DNA from: a virus
Virus record (IMG/VR): IMGVR_UViG_3300046718_000208
Span: 1-40,249 of that record
Reading direction: 5' to 3' (one strand)
Length of the DNA: 40,249 nt
The translations under genes were made by a program, and so were the position numbers. This document shows, piece after piece, positions 16,881 through 40,249 of the stretch (position 1 is the first letter of the stretch; each line of letters begins with the position of its first letter). The notes below the pieces were generated by a model. That model saw nothing but the letters and a program-made list of their open reading frames with translations, did no database searches and was not told where the DNA came from.

Positions 16881-16916
16881 CTCGCTTCGCTTCTCGCTTC
16901 GCTTCTCGCTTCGCTT
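16881..16916. repeat. Three perfect tandem 12-bp repeats upstream of scaffold gene
   Basis: CTCGCTTCGCTT occurs three times without change at 16,881, 16,893 and 16,905. On the transcribed (minus) strand the unit is AAGCGAAGCGAG, rich in GAAG/GCGAG, so it offers several weak SD-like sites ahead of the scaffold ATG. It overlaps the last codon of the preceding 55-aa gene. It resembles a slippage-expanded linker. Confidence 0.7.
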
Positions 16917-22622: not shown

Positions 22623-22961
22623 TTATTGTATAGTCTCCTGCTCCGCAGTAGCGGCAGCGCGAGGGATTAGAATAGGATTAACTAGAGGAGCGCCGCTGTC
22701 CCTGATTACTATAGTAACACTCGGTACAGTAGCGCCAGCGTCTTTCATAAGGCCCCTGAGCTTTAGGGCAGTATTAGCAGCATTTAGCCTAATGGTATCA
22801 GTATCTCCATGATCCATTATATGCGAGACTGTATTGAGGGTACTTTCGAGGCTGAGTCCTGCGCTATCGAGGCTATCCTCTAGACTAGAGCCTTCAGGCT
22901 TGTCTTGATTCAGGCCGACTGACTTCAGGACTTTCTTGATTTCCGGTGTGAGGATTGGCAA
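22623..22961 (-). CDS. Hypothetical protein, possible terminase small subunit, 112 aa
   Basis: A helical N-terminus (LTPEIKKVLKSVGLNQDK) is followed by SLESTLNTVSHIMDHGDTDT and IRLNAANTALKLRGLMKD; then a beta-like VPSVTIVIRD and NPILIPR. The 'helical repeat with T-R-L-x-A-A-x-x-A-L-K-L' and 'N-P-I-L-I-P-R' phrases recall small packaging-associated proteins encoded upstream of terL. I cannot see a clear helix-turn-helix. The start is TTG 22,961, inside the preceding reading frame. Confidence 0.55.
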   Translation of the reverse strand: MPILTPEIKKVLKSVGLNQDKPEGSSLEDSLDSAGLSLESTLNTVSHIMDHGDTDTIRLNAANTALKLRGLMKDAGATVPSVTIVIRDSGAPLVNPILIPRAAATAEQETIQ

Positions 22962-23765: not shown

Positions 23766-23826
23766 ATTTCTCCTTTTTTATACATCTGTACAACTACGTG
23801 TTGGGTCGGTTGAAAATTGTCAGACT

Positions 23827-23866
23827 CCACCCCTCCCGCCTGGGGGAGTACTCCACCGGAGGGTGG
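23827..23866. other. G/C-rich hairpin at the left border of the non-coding region
   Basis: CCACCCCTCC (23,827-23,836) pairs with GGAGGGTGG (23,858-23,866) with one bulge. Between them is the palindrome GGAGTACTCC (23,845-23,854). It lies 60 bp upstream of the 156-aa gene and next to the 34-bp repeats. On the minus strand only a weak T-run (AATTTTC) follows 8 nt later, so it may be an inefficient terminator for RNA entering from the right, or a structural element. Confidence 0.45.
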
Positions 23867-23878
23867 TGGTTTCGGCTC

Positions 23879-24062
23879 GGAATCATCCTAAATCTGGTGG
23901 AGTAAACATGATTAAATCATCCTATCTCTAGTAGAGTAGAGTAGAAGGAATCACCTATTGTCTAGTAGAGTAGGGTAGATTGAATCATCCTTAGTCTACT
24001 AGAGATTGGGTATTGGAATCTAGACTACTCTACTAGACTAGCTACGCTTCTACTCTACTAGA
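23879..24062. repeat. 34-bp-period iteron array
   Basis: Units begin with AATC at 23,881, 23,915, 23,949, 23,983 and 24,017, exactly 34 bp apart. Three of the five continue as AATCATCC. Twelve bases after each AATC start is a core: TCTGGTGGAG, TCTAGTAGAG (twice), TCTACTAGAG and TCTACTAGAC. TCTA(G/C)TAGA is itself a 9-bp palindrome. One more core (24,054-24,062) lies 25 bp after the last unit. The units are alike along their length, so this is an iteron or operator array rather than repeats with spacers. Related single or double copies are at 25,720 and 30,008-30,072. Confidence 0.75.
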
Positions 24063-24085
24063 CTAGAGCCTCAGTCGGCTGAGTC

Positions 24086-24326: not shown

Positions 24327-24536
24327 GAGCGGCTGAGAGCCTCAGGAATCCCAGGTCTCCTATTGAACGTCGATAGGTGTAATAGTTACTCGAAACTAGG
24401 GTATTATACTGAGCGGCTGTCGGCTGAGCTTAGAGACCTGCTAGAGAGCGGCTGAGCGGCTGAGGATGAGACTTAGAAGAGACTGCCAGGAGACTGCTAG
24501 GAGCGGCTGAGAGATCGAGAGCGGCTGAGCGGCTGA
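24327..24536. repeat. Seven copies of GAGCGGCTG(A/T), two as tandem doublets
   Basis: Copies start at 24,327, 24,411, 24,446, 24,454, 24,501, 24,519 and 24,527. The pairs 24,446/24,454 and 24,519/24,527 are tandem with an 8-bp unit (GAGCGGCT), and the two doublets are 73 bp apart. No reading frame covers the region. The core AGCGGC is the hexamer over-represented throughout the window. It may be a replication, recombination or packaging element. The remaining non-coding DNA (24,110-24,326) shows short hairpins only. Confidence 0.65.
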
Positions 24537-24558
24537 GATATGCTCAAGCCCTAACGTC

Positions 24559-24872: not shown

Positions 24873-24901
24873 ATCTTATCAAATGAGAAAACCCCTGTCA
24901 A
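24873..24901 (-). promoter_or_regulatory. Consensus-like promoter of the 73-aa gene, overlapping a terminator
   Basis: On the minus strand TTGACA (24,901-24,896), a 17-nt spacer and TAAGAT (24,878-24,873). The -10 ends 8 nt before ATG 24,864, so the transcript would start about 1-2 nt before the start codon. The -35 and part of the spacer lie inside the hairpin that terminates the upstream gene. Confidence 0.7.
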
Positions 24902-24926
24902 GCCTAGAATGACCTAACAGGGGTTT
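24889..24926 (-). terminator. Terminator after the first leftward gene
   Basis: AAACCCCTGT and ACAGGGGTTT form a perfect 10-bp stem around an 18-nt loop, followed on the minus strand by TCTCATTT; the stem itself ends in TTT. It lies 27 nt after the stop of the 148-aa gene. The T-run is short, so read-through is possible. Confidence 0.65.
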
Positions 24927-24952: not shown

Positions 24953-25399
24953 TTACGCGAGAGCCGCTCCGTTCTTTTTCAATCCCTCGCGGATGTCGGC
25001 GGTATTCTTGATAAGGGTCATAGCGGACTCTTTCGCTTTCGCCTTATCCGATGCTGACATTTCCTTAGAGTAGCGGTATACCGTTTTGGCGAGGTTCAGG
25101 ACCAACGCTCCAACTGCTACGGAATCAGCCGGAGTCCCTGTAAACGGAGTCAGGTTACCGTCTTCATCTTTTAGCATCCAGCCGGAAGGATCAGCGCGGA
25201 ACTGACGCTGATACTCAGCCTTGAGTCCTTCGTTAACGAGCGCGAGAAACTTGCTGGCATCGTTTCCGACTCGCGCTAACGCGCTAGCGGTATCCGCGAC
25301 TGGTTCGAAGCTTCCCTCCTTAACGAGGGTCACGTCCTCGAAACTGTCGAGATCGAAAAAGCTTTTCTGTACTGGTACTGGAATCGTTTGTTCTGCCAT
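24953..25399 (-). CDS. Hypothetical acidic/helical protein, 148 aa
   Basis: This is the first gene behind the strong leftward promoter at 25,453-25,481 and has its own terminator. The product starts MAEQTIPVPVQKSFFDLDSF, then has a helical part (SKFLALVNEGLKAEYQRQFR), a segment WMLKDEDGNLTPFTGTPADS, and a lysine-rich end (SDKAKAKESAMTLIKNTADI). No helix-turn-helix or enzymatic motif is evident. Single-gene placement next to a divergent control region would suit an abundant binding or regulatory protein, but this is inference only. ATG 25,399 lies after a leader of about 50 nt containing an inverted repeat. Confidence 0.65.
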   Translation of the reverse strand: MAEQTIPVPVQKSFFDLDSFEDVTLVKEGSFEPVADTASALARVGNDASKFLALVNEGLKAEYQRQFRADPSGWMLKDEDGNLTPFTGTPADSVAVGALVLNLAKTVYRYSKEMSASDKAKAKESAMTLIKNTADIREGLKKNGAALA

Positions 25400-25416
25400 G
25401 CTAGGTCATCCTTAGT

Positions 25417-25432
25417 TGCGGCTCAGCCGCTA
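25417..25432. repeat. Inverted repeat in the leader of the first leftward gene
   Basis: GCGGCT and AGCCGC flank a single base (about 25,419-25,431), a 13-bp palindrome between the leftward promoter and ATG 25,399. In RNA it could only form with a larger loop, so it looks more like a DNA site. It carries two inverted copies of the over-represented GCGGC core. Confidence 0.4.
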
Positions 25433-25452
25433 GTGAATTTGACTACACTATG

Positions 25453-25481
25453 ATGATAAGCCTATCGTGGCTCGTTTGCAA
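25453..25481 (-). promoter_or_regulatory. Leftward promoter of the 148-aa gene
   Basis: On the minus strand TTGCAA (25,481-25,476), a 17-nt spacer and TATCAT (25,458-25,453). Both hexamers are close to the sigma-70 consensus. The start of transcription should be near 25,446, giving a leader of about 47 nt. Confidence 0.6.
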
Positions 25482-25553
25482 GCCCTTTTTGGAGGAACTT
25501 CAAAGTATTTTCGCTCCACTTCGGCAAGCGGAGGCGCTAGTTGCGGCTCTCGG

Positions 25554-25690
25554 AGGCTAACTTCACTCCAAAAGCGGCTCACTTCAGGTCGGCTGAGCCT
25601 CACTTCGCCCCGCGAGAGCCTAACTCCACTCGAAACAGCCTAACTCCACTCCAAAAAGCCCAATTTGCGGCGCAAAAAGCCCAAAAGGCG
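25554..25690. repeat. Degenerate 20-21-bp tandem repeats upstream of the leftward promoter
   Basis: The best two units are AGCCTAACTCCACTC(G/C)AAA(C/A), 25,617-25,636 and 25,637-25,656, directly adjacent. A third (AGGCTAACTTCACTCCAAAA) is at 25,554-25,573. Weaker ones lie between (AGCGGCTCACTTC, 25,573; GAGCCTCACTTCGC, about 25,595) and after (AGCCCAATTTGC, 25,657; AGCCCAAAAGG, 25,678). They start about 70 bp upstream of the leftward -35 and could be activator or replication-protein sites. Confidence 0.6.
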
Positions 25691-25719: not shown

Positions 25720-25745
25720 AATCCCCCTTACTCTAGTAGAGAAGT
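25720..25745. repeat. Single copy of the 34-bp-array element
   Basis: AATC at 25,720 is followed after 12 bases by TCTAGTAGAG at 25,732-25,741, the same spacing and core as in the array at 23,879. It lies in the divergent control region and suggests that the same protein binds here. Confidence 0.6.
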
Positions 25746-25755
25746 ATTTTCCCAT

Positions 25756-25801
25756 TATCGGACAGTATAGCACAGCGCGAAACTGGATACTATCGGACAG
25801 T
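25756..25801. repeat. Two direct repeats TATCGGACAGT
   Basis: Identical 11-mers start at 25,756 and 25,791, 35 bp apart. The first overlaps the candidate leftward -10 element at 25,764-25,769. The near-34-bp distance resembles that of the iteron array. They may be paired operator half-sites. Confidence 0.5.
25764..25774 (-). promoter_or_regulatory. Candidate second leftward promoter (extended -10)
   Basis: The minus strand reads TGTGCTATACT, a TATACT -10 with an upstream TG one base away. The same 11-mer is part of the strong promoter at 29,952-29,980. No TTGACA-like -35 is found 17 nt upstream, so the call rests on the extended -10 only. Confidence 0.35.
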
Positions 25802-26156: not shown

Positions 26157-26185
26157 TTGACACCATACAGGATCGTAGCTATACT
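26157..26185 (+). promoter_or_regulatory. Strong rightward promoter for the replication operon
   Basis: TTGACA (26,157-26,162), a 17-nt spacer and TATACT (26,180-26,185). The -35 is perfect and the -10 differs at one base. Transcription should start near 26,192, leaving a leader of about 97 nt that contains O3. Three palindromes of one type lie around it, so it is probably repressible. Confidence 0.8.
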
Positions 26186-26288: not shown

Positions 26289-26882
26289 ATGACACCTATT
26301 GAAAGCGACTATAATCCGGCTGAGGCTCTATGCTCAGCTTGTGGCCTAGGTCTAACCGAGACCGAGTATCGGTGGTCTAACTCTCGTCAGGGAGAGCCGC
26401 TAATTCACCCTCGCTGTGCCGCGTTTGCTATTCAGCGGGAGGGAACGGTAACCATCTCCCTGAGAGAGTACGATATCCTGAACGCAGCTAGACTCTTGAT
26501 AGAGCCGCTTATGGATTGCTCACCCTCTACTAATCGCTACCATGCGGAATGTCAGCTAGGTGCGACTAGGTGGCTAGCTGAAATGAATCAGGACTCCCTC
26601 TTCTTAGTCCTCGCGAGGTTCGAGGCAATTTCAGCGGGGCTGAGTCTAATACTCGCTAAGAACTATAAGAACATCAAAGCGGCTCTCGATGAGCGAGAGA
26701 AAGCGAAGTTCGCTAAGGTAGCAGTGATACGCGAGGAGCCGACTAAGCGAGAGAGAGTCGCCCTCTCGGATAGGGATAAGGCGCTCCGCGCTCTAATGAA
26801 TAACGGAGTCTCGGAGTCAGCCGCTAAGCAGATAGTGGATGCGGAGTTTATTAAGCAAGGGAGAATTAAGCTAAAGGTCTGA
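26289..26882 (+). CDS. Hypothetical zinc-knuckle protein, 197 aa
   Basis: This is the first gene of the rightward operon. The N-terminus has C15-S-A-C18 and, about 22 residues later, H-P-R-C, a C2HC-type metal site. The centre is helical (REYDILNAARLLIEPLMDCS, then FLVLARFEAISAGLSLILAK) and the C-terminus is very charged, ending in a UBA/helix-like part (ALMNNGVSESAAKQIVDAEF). ATG 26,289 has AGGAGG 11 nt upstream. First place behind the main promoter suggests an early regulatory or takeover protein, but the family is unknown. Confidence 0.65.
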   Translation: MTPIESDYNPAEALCSACGLGLTETEYRWSNSRQGEPLIHPRCAAFAIQREGTVTISLREYDILNAARLLIEPLMDCSPSTNRYHAECQLGATRWLAEMNQDSLFLVLARFEAISAGLSLILAKNYKNIKAALDEREKAKFAKVAVIREEPTKRERVALSDRDKALRALMNNGVSESAAKQIVDAEFIKQGRIKLKV

Positions 26883-29717: not shown

Positions 29718-29756
29718 TGGGGGAGACCTGATACCTCCCCCACCACCTTATTTTTT
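29718..29756 (+). terminator. Terminator of the first rightward segment
   Basis: TGGGGGAG (29,718-29,725) pairs with CTCCCCCA (29,735-29,742) around a 9-nt loop, and six T residues follow at 29,751-29,756. It ends the helicase transcript and overlaps the 3' end of the converging leftward gene. Confidence 0.65.
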
Positions 29757-29945
29757 CCTCTCCAGTTCAATAGGTGCGTGTCCTTTTGGGTAGGTCATCA
29801 TTCCCATTCCGTCTACCGTAGTATCAGGGTGGATAGAGTAGGCTATCCACTGTTTAGGTCTCTCAGCTTTACTGACAGCCTCTTTCAAGGTCGGGGCGAT
29901 AGCCCATAGGTGGTTACTGCCAAAAACAATCACTAGTCTAGTCAT
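29748..29945 (-). CDS. Conserved small phage protein, 65 aa, leaderless mRNA
   Basis: The frame continues to 30,047, but ATG 29,945 is chosen because the promoter at 29,952-29,980 lies inside that extension and would start the RNA at this A. The product starts MTRLVIVFGSNHLWAIAPTL, then has KEAVSKAERPKQWIAYSIHP and DGMGMMTYPKGH. The 'V-x-G-S-x-H-L-W-A-x-A-P-T-L' phrase is familiar from small proteins of many podoviruses. It is a lone leftward gene in the rightward block. Function unknown. Confidence 0.7.
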   Translation of the reverse strand: MTRLVIVFGSNHLWAIAPTLKEAVSKAERPKQWIAYSIHPDTTVDGMGMMTYPKGHAPIELERKK

Positions 29946-29951
29946 GATACT

Positions 29952-29980
29952 AGTATAGCACAGGGGGAAACAAATGTCAA
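29952..29980 (-). promoter_or_regulatory. Strong promoter giving a leaderless mRNA
   Basis: On the minus strand TTGACA (29,980-29,975), a 17-nt spacer and TATACT (29,957-29,952), with TGC before the -10 (extended). Six bases separate the -10 from ATG 29,945, so the normal start of transcription is the A of the start codon. No SD is present. Confidence 0.8.
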
Positions 29981-30007
29981 GAACATTAACAAAATTTAAT
30001 TTTTGCC

Positions 30008-30072
30008 GGAAGATCTCTATTCTACTAGACAAGGGGCCATCAATCATCCCATCTCTACTAGACTAGGGGCGA
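30008..30072. repeat. Two copies of the 34-bp-array element
   Basis: TCTACTAGAC cores are at 30,021-30,030 and 30,054-30,063, both followed by (A/T)AGGGGC. The second is preceded by AATCATCC at 30,042, the same 12-base offset as in the main array. They lie about 40 bp upstream of the -35 of the leftward gene and upstream of the rightward gene at 30,250. The rest of this gene-free stretch (30,073-30,228) holds only a poor promoter match (TTGACT near 30,151). Confidence 0.6.
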
Positions 30073-32468: not shown

Positions 32469-32663
32469 ATGGAATTCATCAAACTGACTCACACTGAAAT
32501 CGAAACGCTTATCTCTCTATTAAGCGAGATGGAGGACCTATCTCTTGATGAGCAGGAAGTCTTAATTAAGCTCAAGAGGATACGCGAGGGACAGAAGGCT
32601 AAGCTCGGACGGACTAAGAAGAAGGAACCAGAAACTAAATCAACATTTGTATCTTATCCCTAA
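32469..32663 (+). CDS. Hypothetical protein, 64 aa
   Basis: ATG 32,469 follows the SD AAGGAG. The product starts MEFIKLTHTEIETLISLLSE, an amphipathic helix, then DLSLDEQEVLIKLKRIREGQ and a lysine-rich tail. It probably forms helical oligomers and is not recognised. The next gene starts 13 nt later. Confidence 0.55.
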   Translation: MEFIKLTHTEIETLISLLSEMEDLSLDEQEVLIKLKRIREGQKAKLGRTKKKEPETKSTFVSYP

Positions 32664-32676
32664 GGAGACTAAAAAC

Positions 32677-33129
32677 ATGGCAACAGCACTATACACAGTT
32701 AAGAAGTTCTTTCCGAAAGTAAAGAGAGTAGTCGATGCAACAAAGAATGCGACCATCGAAGTAACCGCAAGTGATGCCGCTAAGTCAGACCTGAAGAATC
32801 ATAAGAGTTGCGCGATGGCGGTGGCCTGTAAGAGGAAGTTCCATCTGGACGGAGTAATTATCTCTCGATCGACGAGTTATTTAGTTAAGGGAACTATTGC
32901 TCGTCGGTTCAAGGTCCCTGAGAGTGTAAGCAGGGAGGTAGTCTCTTTTGACCGCGGCAGCGGATTCTCTCCTGGGACTTATGAACTCCAGAGGGTTCCG
33001 CCATCAAGCCGATTCGGAATAAGACCGGGGCGGACGGCTAAGAACAGGAAGAGTAATCCTGATAAGCCTAAGAGATTCCGACATATTACGGATAAGGTTA
33101 GAGCGGTCTTAGGGGGAGAGCGCGCCTGA
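32677..33129 (+). CDS. Conserved phage protein of unknown function, 150 aa
   Basis: ATG 32,677 is chosen over an upstream TTG (32,647) because AAGGAG lies 8 nt upstream. The central part is highly characteristic: CAMAVACKRKFHLDGVIISR, STSYLVKGTIARRFKVPESV and SREVVSFDRGSGFSPGTYEL, familiar from many tailed phages. The C-terminus is very basic (GRTAKNRKSNPDKPKRFRHI), fitting nucleic-acid binding. I know of no established function. Confidence 0.7.
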   Translation: MATALYTVKKFFPKVKRVVDATKNATIEVTASDAAKSDLKNHKSCAMAVACKRKFHLDGVIISRSTSYLVKGTIARRFKVPESVSREVVSFDRGSGFSPGTYELQRVPPSSRFGIRPGRTAKNRKSNPDKPKRFRHITDKVRAVLGGERA

Positions 33130-36294: not shown

Positions 36295-38708
36295 TGCTTC
36301 AGGGCAGAGGATCATCGAGTCCGATAGCAATTCTTATTGCTGATGGAGGGCAGGGCGAGGACATAAAGACTAACTATGCCCTTTCGGGCTATCAGGAGAG
36401 CCTGCTTTCTCAGTTCTCAGAGGAAAACAATCTAAGCCTGAATAGCTTCTGGAGAACGGCTCTAGTTAAAGAGGAAGTTACTAAGGCTGAGGACTGGTCT
36501 TCCGCATACCTTGCCGCTAATGAGGCTAAGGTAACTCAATACGCTCCCATTTTACTCGAAGAGATTAAGGCCCTGGGAGCTAACCTGCTTATCCCCTTAG
36601 GAGAGTTAGCCTTTAATTTCCTCACCAACATGACAGGCATAAGGAAGTTCCGCGGCTCTGTCCTCCCCTCTAATCCAACTACCTATGGAATCCTGAATCG
36701 AGAGTATAAGGTCCTGCCGATCCTGGGACCATATCCTTACCTGTACTCTGATTATAAGCAGAGGTATATAACTAGGATCGACTTCGGTAAGATCTCCAGG
36801 AATCTGGGGCCGAATCCTGTACCTGAATCCCTATTCAATGTATGGATATGTAGGAGTTCAAGCGCCTTCAGGAACTTCGTCGAGCGGCACTATGGGAAGT
36901 CTGAGTTCATGGTATTCGACATTGAGACATTTAAGGGCCTGCCTACTTGTATATCCTTTTGCTTTGATGGCCGCGAGTCGGTTTGTGTCCCCTTACTAGA
37001 TAAGAGTATCGACGTTGATATGCGAGTCCTGATGCTAGGACAAGTGGCTAAGCTCCTGGCTAGTCCGATACCTAAGGTCAATCAGAATATTAAGTTCGAC
37101 TGGAAGATCCTAGAGCGATGGAACTTCAAAGTAGCTAATGTAGTCGGAGACACGATGCTAGCGGCAGGCTGTCTCTATTGCGAGTTCCCTAAGAACCTAG
37201 GATTCCTAACTTCGATCTATACTGACCTCCCTTACTTCAAGGATGAGGGCAAGGAATTCGATCCGGCCCGGATTAAGAAGGATCAGTTCTATCTCTATAA
37301 TGCTAAGGACTCTCTTGCCTGTCATCAGATCTATACTAAGCAGAAAGTGGAACTCTTAGAGCAGGGAGTAGACGAGGTATATAAAAAGACCATAAGTATC
37401 CTGCCGCTATACAAGCAGATGGAAGAGAACGGAATTAGGATAGATCAGGAGGAGAGAGAGCGGCTCCATGCTAAATACTCCTCACTCTTTAGGATTCATA
37501 ACCTCAAGCTGAATAGCCTAGCGAGCAGAGAGTATAACCCACTGTCAAGTCTCGCTATGGATAACCTAATCTTTAAGGAGTTGAAGTATAAGACTCTACG
37601 CGGAGCAAATGATACTAGCGAAGATTCCTTAATGCTCCTCCGCCTCCTTAGTGAAGCGACTGCCGCACCGAGCACCGGACCTCTGATAATTGATGAAATC
37701 ATCGCCTGTCGGAAACTCCACAAGGTTATAGAAATCCTCGAACTTCCTCAGTATCCGGACCACCGCTTCAGGTGTGAGTTTAAGATAGGCGGTGCGGAGA
37801 CAGGCAGGACTACTGGAGGTAAATCCCTAGATGAACTCCTAACTCTAACTGATAAGGGAAAGACAGGAATCCTCCGCCTGGGCTATTCTCTCCAGACAAT
37901 AGGAAAGCATGGATTCTCGATTGACGGGATGACCTACGGGCGGGATATTAGGTCTATGTTTGTGCCATCTCGGGGATATAGATTCGTAGAGAATGATCTA
38001 TCTCAGGCTGAAGCCAGAGTAGACGCGGTACTAGCCGGTAACTTTAATATCCTAGCGATATTCGATGGTCCTATTGGTATCCACAGGCTAACAGGCTCCT
38101 GGGCTTATGGATGCCCTCCTGAAGAGGTTAAGAAGAACGTCCTAGTAGACGGAATAGACCGCTATCATGTTGCTAAACAAGTCCGCCACTCAGGGGAGCG
38201 TAACATAACAGCAGAAGGCCTAGTAACCAAATTCCTCTGGGGCCTCTCCCTCTCCGAAGGAAAGCGGCTCCTAGACGTATTCCATAAGTATCAACCGGAG
38301 ATCAGAGAGGTCTTTCATCGTGATATCATTAGATCTATTGACAGTACTCACTCCCTTATTGCTCCTAACGGCAGGCGCCGGGATTTCTTTGATCGCGTCA
38401 CACGTTCGACGTATAATGAGGGATTCTCATTTCTCCCCCAGGCCATTGTATCCGATCAGACCAAGTTTTCGCTTCTGGAGACGATGGATAGATTTCCTGA
38501 AGCGAGACTCCTAACAGAAGCTCATGATGGAGTTCTTGCAGAAGTGCCTGTCGAGAGAGTAATGGAGTACATAGAGATTTACAAGACAAGTATTGAAAAA
38601 CCTATAGATTTCCGTAAAGGGTCTCTTCCAAGAGATTACTCTTTAGTTATTCCTTGTGAAGCGAGCGCCGGGGATAACTGGAACGATCTGGTAGAGATTA
38701 AGCTCTAA
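36294..38708 (+). CDS. Family A DNA polymerase with N-terminal uracil-glycosylase-like domain, 804 aa
   Basis: The start is GTG 36,294 with the SD AAGGAA. Residues 1-170 resemble a family 4-type UDG fold (PILLEEIKALGANLLIPLG, then GIRKFRGSVL and a late ILGPYPYLYSDY in place of the usual H-P). The 3'-5' exonuclease is complete: D209-I-E211, N265 to D269, Y335 to D339. The polymerase has motif A D568-LSQAEAR and a motif C-like HDG (744-746) where the family has H-D-E; the O-helix region (K628 to N637, KQVRHSGERN) lacks the usual aromatic residue. SPO1 polymerase has a comparable UDG-like fusion. It should be the replicative polymerase. Confidence 0.85.
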   Translation: MLQGRGSSSPIAILIADGGQGEDIKTNYALSGYQESLLSQFSEENNLSLNSFWRTALVKEEVTKAEDWSSAYLAANEAKVTQYAPILLEEIKALGANLLIPLGELAFNFLTNMTGIRKFRGSVLPSNPTTYGILNREYKVLPILGPYPYLYSDYKQRYITRIDFGKISRNLGPNPVPESLFNVWICRSSSAFRNFVERHYGKSEFMVFDIETFKGLPTCISFCFDGRESVCVPLLDKSIDVDMRVLMLGQVAKLLASPIPKVNQNIKFDWKILERWNFKVANVVGDTMLAAGCLYCEFPKNLGFLTSIYTDLPYFKDEGKEFDPARIKKDQFYLYNAKDSLACHQIYTKQKVELLEQGVDEVYKKTISILPLYKQMEENGIRIDQEERERLHAKYSSLFRIHNLKLNSLASREYNPLSSLAMDNLIFKELKYKTLRGANDTSEDSLMLLRLLSEATAAPSTGPLIIDEIIACRKLHKVIEILELPQYPDHRFRCEFKIGGAETGRTTGGKSLDELLTLTDKGKTGILRLGYSLQTIGKHGFSIDGMTYGRDIRSMFVPSRGYRFVENDLSQAEARVDAVLAGNFNILAIFDGPIGIHRLTGSWAYGCPPEEVKKNVLVDGIDRYHVAKQVRHSGERNITAEGLVTKFLWGLSLSEGKRLLDVFHKYQPEIREVFHRDIIRSIDSTHSLIAPNGRRRDFFDRVTRSTYNEGFSFLPQAIVSDQTKFSLLETMDRFPEARLLTEAHDGVLAEVPVERVMEYIEIYKTSIEKPIDFRKGSLPRDYSLVIPCEASAGDNWNDLVEIKL

Positions 38709-39083: not shown

Positions 39084-40249
39084 TGAACTTTATTCAAGCA
39101 CTCTTAGAGCATACGAAACTATATGAATCTCCCAACTCATTCTGGAAGTGGTCTGCCTTTGGAGCTATATCGGCGGTCTTGCGGGATAACTGCTATCTTA
39201 AGCAAGGAGACGACATGCTATTCGCTAATATGTATATACTCCTCCTTGCCGACAGTGCGGTTCAGCGGAAAGGGCGTCCGGTAAGATTCTGTGAAAAGCT
39301 CGTTACTAAGGTCGGAAACACAAAGATCATCAGTGGAAAAGCCTCTATTCAGGGGATTCTTGACACTATGGCTACTAACGAAACAGATCCAATCACGGGG
39401 AAGGTTAACAAAGGAGGAGCGTCAGTATTTTTTGCAGAGGAATTATCAGCTGCGCTTGTCGCTGATCCCCAAGCGGTTGCCACCCTTACGAATATGTATG
39501 ACTATAAGGAAAGATACACCGAACTCCTGAGGACGCGGGCTAAGACTCAGATCAGTAACATGGTATTTAGCCTTATAGCGGCCTCTAACGAGGATCTACT
39601 GAAACAGCTATACGATAAAGCCGCGGTCTCTGGCGGATTACTCGGCAGAACTTTCCTAATAGTTCCTAATGAGTTTCGGCCCTCTAATTCTCTCTTCGAT
39701 ATCGAGGATAAATCAGCTAGTTTTGCCGCGCTGGCAACCTTGCTCTCTCAGGTGAGTGATTTGCGGGGAGCTTTCATAGTTGAGGAAGAAGCTAAGAAAG
39801 AGTACGATAGCTGGTATAAGCCCTTCCGCGCCTCTTATAAGGATAGAGCAGACAGGTCCGGAATCGTAGGCCGCTTGCATACTGGAGTCCTGAAGCTCGC
39901 CTTTATCATGGCGGCTAATGACCTGACTGTAAGCGTTAAGAAGACTCACATGGAAGAAGCGATCAACGAAGGAATGACTCTTGTGCCCAACTATAATACG
40001 TTTATTTTCGCAAGCGGAAAGAGTACGATAGCAGAGGCGGGAGGGATAATTATCAATGATCTCCTAGCGGCTAATCATCAGGAGCATACGCTTACGCGGA
40101 AGGAAATACTAAGGTCACACTGGAAGGACTTCGATAGTAAGGTGATGGATGAAGCCGTCTTGACTCTGGAGCTGGGCGGGCATATTAAGACGATTATTAG
40201 GAACAACGAAATGGCTTTTCAGCTAACTGATTACTGTCTCACTTTTATG
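39083..40249 (+). CDS. DUF3987-like helicase/primase-associated protein, 3' truncated, 389 codons visible
   Basis: GTG 39,083 starts a frame open to the window end. It has the order of DUF3987-type phage helicases: FWKWSAFGAISAVL, then MYILLLADSAVQRKGRPV (residues 50-67) in the P-loop position, SGKASIQGILDTMA, a Walker B-like VFFAEELSAAL, SNMVFSLIAASNEDLL (sensor-like) and GGLLGRTFLIVPNEFR with a possible Arg finger. The P-loop lacks the normal G-x4-G-K-(S/T). Known relatives act near polymerase genes in replication initiation. The C-terminal part (about 325-389) looks like a winged-helix domain. Loading or ATPase activity is uncertain. Confidence 0.65.
   Translation, partial: MNFIQALLEHTKLYESPNSFWKWSAFGAISAVLRDNCYLKQGDDMLFANMYILLLADSAVQRKGRPVRFCEKLVTKVGNTKIISGKASIQGILDTMATNETDPITGKVNKGGASVFFAEELSAALVADPQAVATLTNMYDYKERYTELLRTRAKTQISNMVFSLIAASNEDLLKQLYDKAAVSGGLLGRTFLIVPNEFRPSNSLFDIEDKSASFAALATLLSQVSDLRGAFIVEEEAKKEYDSWYKPFRASYKDRADRSGIVGRLHTGVLKLAFIMAANDLTVSVKKTHMEEAINEGMTLVPNYNTFIFASGKSTIAEAGGIIINDLLAANHQEHTLTRKEILRSHWKDFDSKVMDEAVLTLELGGHIKTIIRNNEMAFQLTDYCLTFM

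Follow-up and report, generated by a model that had tools for sequence, protein, structure and literature searches.

An array of 34-bp repeats with a palindromic core lies at the head of the late operon of an uncultured phage, next to an element that is conserved across its clade, and further copies of the same site stand at two other intergenic locations. Most simply, these would be sites at which a phage protein binds, clustered in a conserved control locus. The fuller reading that we tentatively favor, giving it slightly less than even credence, is that of a lineage-specific, protein-bound control locus that serves as a replication origin, as the switch between early and late genes, or as both. 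We infer the protein binding, the identity of the protein, and the origin or switch role. A literature search found no description of this locus.

The window, that is, the whole stretch of DNA analyzed, is an entire IMG/VR virus record of 40,249 bases. A contig of the same virus from another sample crosses the junction from 40,249 to 1, where it has about 23 additional bases; over the rest it is at least 99.9% identical. The genome is therefore nearly complete, and it is either circular or circularly permuted. Family searches recognized a portal-like protein, DNA polymerase A, a SNF2-like helicase, an exonuclease, and a Sak4-like protein, and distant similarity to annotated large terminases identified the terminase. 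The late genes extend leftward from 23.8 kb and the early genes rightward from 26.3 kb, and intergenic DNA makes up 16% of the record. Comparison with phage records showed no DNA similarity, and protein searches against them gave distant matches only (terminase, polymerase), with none for the 148-amino-acid protein encoded at 24953-25399. The relatives discussed here are other uncultured contigs, and a scan of bacterial genomes yielded no confirmed relative. Elsewhere in the record, 53 bases inside the DNA polymerase gene (37138-37190) are missing from contig G001, and at this point the polymerase match breaks into two parts. A long reading frame running from 39084 to 40249 and into position 1 seems to reach the record end, and by eye its product looks DUF3987-type-like. 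Between genes, CTCGCTTCGCTT occurs in three exact copies at 16881-16916, and words containing AGCGGC are strongly overrepresented genome-wide (AGCGGCAG, 29 occurrences on both strands versus 1.1 by base composition).

The locus itself, with its left flank, is made up as follows.

22623 to 22961, minus strand: conserved small protein on the left flank (family of 45 open reading frames), a small-terminase candidate by position only
23818 to 23870, minus strand: clade-conserved element with core AGTACTCCCCCAGG at 23839-23852, lying in a GC-rich stretch that can fold, immediately before the first late-side gene
23881 to 23914, plus strand: repeat unit 1, AATCATCCT box and degenerate core TCTGGTGGA at 23893-23901
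23915 to 23948, plus strand: repeat unit 2, AATCATCCT box and core TCTAGTAGA at 23927-23935
23949 to 23982, plus strand: repeat unit 3, AATCACCTA and core TCTAGTAGA at 23961-23969
23983 to 24016, plus strand: repeat unit 4, AATCATCCT box and core TCTACTAGA at 23995-24003
24017 to 24050, plus strand: repeat unit 5, core TCTACTAGA at 24029-24037
24054 to 24062, no strand: sixth core TCTACTAGA, 25 bp after the fifth and off the 34-bp phase
23926 to 24068, no strand: nested inverted repeat formed by the array, with unit 4 in the loop

There are exactly eight TCTASTAGA cores in the record (at 23927, 23961, 23995, 24029, 24054, 25732, 30021, and 30054), while the number expected per genome for both variants together is 0.93 under a first-order model and 0.56 under a second-order model. 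The probability of eight or more is about 6e-6 and 1.5e-7, respectively, and a chance origin of the sites was rejected. The preliminary description had put the expectation well below once per 40 kb, which was somewhat too strongly worded, and the excess that it had pointed to is real. Its statement that no such core lies inside a gene was borne out by a scan of the whole record, which placed all eight outside likely genes. The five AATC starts (23881, 23915, 23949, 23983, and 24017) are spaced by exactly 34 bp, a period already proposed and also reported by TRF. The accompanying claim that a core or a close variant follows 12 bases after each AATC needs two corrections: the core of unit 1 is degenerate, and the AATC of unit 5 is part of AATCTAGACTAC, an inverted copy of the right flank of unit 3. 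The true AATCATCC box therefore stands at 23881, 23915, 23983, and 30042, and it is present in degenerate form at 23949 and 25720. Farther right, six copies of AGCGGCTGAG, all on the plus strand, were seen in the noncoding stretch at 24328-24537.

The additional copies named in the preliminary description, at 25,720/25,732 and 30,042/30,054 together with a core at 30,021, are all present. They lie among the following promoter-like and other features to the right of the array.

24873 to 24901, minus strand: leftward promoter-like TTGACA-17-TAAGAT, the candidate late promoter upstream of the array
24889 to 24926, minus strand: intrinsic-terminator-like hairpin after the gene at 24953-25399
24953 to 25399, minus strand: gene for a conserved acidic protein of 148 amino acids flanking the locus (family of 33 open reading frames including relatives)
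25720 to 25740, plus strand: single dispersed site, AATCCCCCTTAC-TCTAGTAGA
25764 to 25775, minus strand: leftward extended -10 CTGTGCTATACT, 24 bp from the 25732 core, a possible promoter of 24953-25399
26157 to 26185, plus strand: rightward (early) promoter-like TTGACA-17-TATACT
29952 to 29980, minus strand: promoter-like TTGACA-17-TATACT with extended -10 CTGTGCTATACT, about 57 bp from the 30,021 core
30021 to 30029, no strand: dispersed core TCTACTAGA without an AATC box
30042 to 30062, plus strand: dispersed site, AATCATCCCATC-TCTACTAGA

Two of the three sites outside the array (25,720 and 30,042) carry AATC at -12, an arrangement for which the chance of at least two in three is about 6.5e-5. 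There is no array hairpin at these sites, and the recurrence of the box supports the view that the motif is a real protein-binding site. The extended -10 CTGTGCTATACT occurs exactly twice in the genome, at 25764 and 29952, both times leftward and beside one of two of the three site clusters. The 30,021 core overlaps the ATG-extended open reading frame 29748-30047, and the TTGACA-17-TATACT promoter (29980-29952) sits within that extension, which makes 29,945 the probable start of the gene. As with operators and stoperators, the motif is found near promoters in several intergenic regions and is absent from genes. The earlier proposal of dispersed sites for one phage DNA-binding protein thus gains support from the intergenic placement, the palindromic core, the AATC box at a fixed distance outside the array, and the two of three clusters that adjoin leftward promoter-like sequences sharing CTGTGCTATACT.

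On the favored reading, each repeat would be a site for a phage-encoded protein, consisting of the palindromic TCTASTAGA and, 12 bp to its left, an AATC(ATCC) box. At 25.7 and 30.0 kb, this protein would also bind the single or paired copies that adjoin the two leftward promoters, and these outlying copies would adjust early promoters. By filling the array cooperatively, it would mark the point where early and late genes diverge, as a replication origin, a late-transcription switch, or both. The locus would combine two parts, a small conserved element of hairpin type (ACTCCCCC core) and a repeat array that evolves fast.

The array starts about 40 bp from the conserved element (minus strand GGTACTCCCCCAAA), which usually lies within a hairpin of changing arms and, at several of the loci read, about 40 to 60 bases upstream of the first late-side gene. 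A matrix built from 19 relatives, with this genome excluded, ranked position 23,839 (minus strand) first among about 80,470 positions. In leave-one-out matrices, the element ranked first in 14 of the 19 relatives and failed in G004, G008, G010, L034, and L122. Because the matrix members had been chosen by eye after their loci had been read, only three rankings are free of that choice, namely those in this genome, L026, and L027; in the latter two, the element also came first. The matrix missed the element position picked by eye in L126, L128, and L131. A minus-strand specificity of the element hairpin, suggested by eye from one G-U pair position, was discarded after a strand test in which hairpin stability showed no preference (10 lineages versus 12).

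Searches with the terminase returned first 37 loci and later 80. The relatives, with terminases 47 to 67% identical, show conserved synteny and mostly keep the conserved element. The preliminary description had named absence of the array from close relatives that otherwise conserve the region as grounds for refuting it, and the comparison went half of the way to such a refutation. No TCTASTAGA array was found in the relatives outside near-identical contigs, despite the synteny, and a few hold one or two scattered single cores; several carry other repeats at the same place. A search of IMG/VR for AATCN8TCTASTAGASTAG returned the same virus and single matches, which by a rough estimate are due to chance, given the size of the collection. 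Other repeats or long inverted repeats are present at the locus in about seven lineages, a count that is descriptive and not a test, since the lineages inspected were chosen after the repeat scores had been seen. They include 17-bp direct repeats in L027 and in the L128/L131 group (17 being half of 34), palindromes beside the element in L019 and L020, a 9-bp-based repeat in G010, and a long inverted repeat in L122. At least six relatives (G004, G005, G007, G008, L034, and L016) have no repeats there. This genome, L019, L027, and L026 have their most repeat-rich 300-bp windows adjoining the element, and windows near it are among the top four in L020, G010, L122, L126, L128, and L131. In most of the repeat-carrying lineages examined, the repeat motif is confined to the locus. 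Just left of the element, L034, G007, L016, and L020 have small leftward open reading frames with matches to LuxR/GerE-type or sigma-4-like helix-turn-helix domains (Pfam E values of 1.3e-10 to 0.005), and none was seen in this genome.

A broader claim, possible but on balance unlikely, is that the locus represents an undescribed class of cis-element, in which the conserved ACTCCCCC hairpin-type element repeatedly gains new, unrelated repeat or long-inverted-repeat arrays at its side, with a phage factor that coevolves with them. Such a factor, whether a protein or one acting at the RNA level, would control the start of replication or the late switch.

The array also forms a long inverted repeat, absent from the preliminary description, with arms at 23926-23947/24047-24068 and 23960-23981/24017-24038 that are each 91% complementary. 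The arms pair at 40 of 44 positions, versus a maximum of 29 in 20,000 shuffles in which the cores were fixed and the flanks shuffled. This is beyond what the cores explain, and it counts against the favored reading and for a role as RNA. The array would then be transcribed leftward from the candidate promoter near 24.9 kb, and the RNA would form a long double-stranded stem ahead of the first late gene. This stem may serve for processing by RNase III, for stability, or for antitermination (as a put/nut-like signal), with its sequence free to vary if pairing is kept. We regard such a structured late-leader RNA as doubtful, though a serious contender. The array folds strongly as RNA or DNA (minus-strand fold z of -4.7), and leftward transcription across it would agree with the promoter-like and terminator-like sites found upstream. 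Also in favor of this reading, the whole 877-nucleotide intergenic gap gave a fold z of -9.1 on the plus strand and -5.3 on the minus strand (20 shuffles each). That the plus strand of this genome is the better folded one, rather than the strand that the leader would use, speaks against it. For the 200 nucleotides right of the conserved element, z (20 shuffles) was -6.2 plus and -4.5 minus in this genome, -0.7 and -7.2 in L027, +0.7 and -4.9 in L131, about -6.5 on both strands in L122, and near 0 in many other relatives. The L027 and L131 repeats, with many G-U pairs, thus fold only on the would-be late-leader strand, which favors the RNA role. Standing against it, the sites at 25.7 and 30.0 kb share box and core without the stem, the neighboring element hairpin lacks a strand preference, and the Rfam 15 covariance models gave no match at gathering score for the locus. 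Known RNA families and tRNA or tmRNA were looked for and none was found, and the array as a large conserved noncoding RNA was set aside, as relatives share no sequence there in which to look for covariation. Terminator-like hairpins lie right of the conserved element in L098 and L124. The second most structured 200-nucleotide stretch of the genome is the minus strand of 25401-25600, the leader of the 148-amino-acid protein gene.

Decidedly unlikely, in our estimation, is a pure transcription regulon, in which one phage repressor or activator would use the sites as operators in three promoter regions and replication would not be involved. The palindromic core, the dispersal, the array upstream of the late operon, and the two clusters near leftward promoter-like sites with the same extended -10 would all fit. 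Yet no regulator gene was recognized, there are only three locations, and the changing repeats beside one conserved element, with motifs confined to the locus in most lineages examined, would be left unexplained. Stoperators of the mycobacteriophage L5 type are asymmetric, about 13 bp long, present in many places, and bound by a known repressor. The phage described here resembles L5-type phages in having one motif dispersed over intergenic regions and differs in having three places, a palindromic core, an array, and no repressor found. Promoters of a phage single-subunit RNA polymerase were also considered and rejected, as there was no RNA polymerase gene among the open reading frames scanned.

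A packaging-initiation site (pac or cosB-like) for a small terminase is very improbable: the locus lies upstream of a terS-like gene in relatives, the conserved 22623-22961 protein is encoded less than 1 kb away, and the genome looks circularly permuted, as in headful packaging, but contigs span the array with scattered ends and no fixed terminus there, the copies at 25.7 and 30.0 kb are unexplained, and the terS candidate is acidic with no helix-turn-helix match. The scattered ends reject a fixed cos end at the array and only weaken a headful pac site, which leaves no fixed end. The repeat cluster upstream of a small-terminase-like gene recalls lambda cosB and SPP1 pac; unlike in those systems, there is no fixed genome end, and copies lie far from the terminase genes.

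Returning to the favored protein-bound control locus, the origin role proposed in the preliminary description is consistent with the position between divergent gene blocks and with a GC-skew minimum 1 bp from the conserved element, a minimum that is confounded by gene direction and that in four relatives lies 2 to 4.7 kb from the element. The array has tandem direct repeats at a constant 34-bp period, as iteron origins do. GC content beside the element is 0.40 to 0.45 versus 0.48 overall, with no marked A+T-rich unwinding tract, and several relatives are richer in A+T left of the element. No initiator, repressor, helix-turn-helix, or other DNA-binding domain was recognized among the open reading frames scanned, and most early ones are without annotation, so that an initiator or repressor may have gone unrecognized. 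Overall, the interpretation given in the preliminary description is partly supported, with the origin role as its less secure half. Two of the binders suggested at the outset, the products of 24953-25399 and 26289-26882, have no recognizable DNA-binding domain. The former has an AlphaFold model with a mean pLDDT of 86 and a pTM of 0.50 and no PDB match at an E value of 0.001 or lower, and the latter has a CxxC...HxxC zinc-knuckle-like N terminus and a low-confidence structure model. The early protein encoded at 32647-33129 is very basic (pI 10.6, net charge +22) and is a candidate DNA binder.

The lambda origin, the P1 iteron origins, and P4 ori/crr each have an initiator gene, an A+T-rich unwinding tract, and an established function. 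The array shares with them tandem repeats of similar size and, with P4, dispersed extra copies, whereas its origin role is a proposal. In the Vibrio cholerae satellite PLE, the RepA_N initiator binds its iteron, a semipalindromic direct repeat, in vitro (PMC7145576). Like the PLE origin, which holds several repeat types, the array occupies a noncoding region between divergently transcribed operons (PMC7145576); unlike in PLE, no initiator was recognized in this phage, and cores are also present at two other intergenic sites. Extrachromosomal mycobacterial prophages have RNA-based origins next to parABS, with a demonstrated transcript and no Rep protein (PMC7157519). The likeness lies in a noncoding region in a phage without a recognized Rep protein; that the region is needed for replication was shown for those prophages, whose replication loci lie beside parABS.

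If the favored reading is right, this one locus would show where a clade of uncultured phages, for which no cultured close relative was found, starts replication or switches to its late genes. It would also provide a natural series in which the repeats change while the neighboring element stays fixed, suited to the study of how a DNA- or RNA-binding factor coevolves with its sites.
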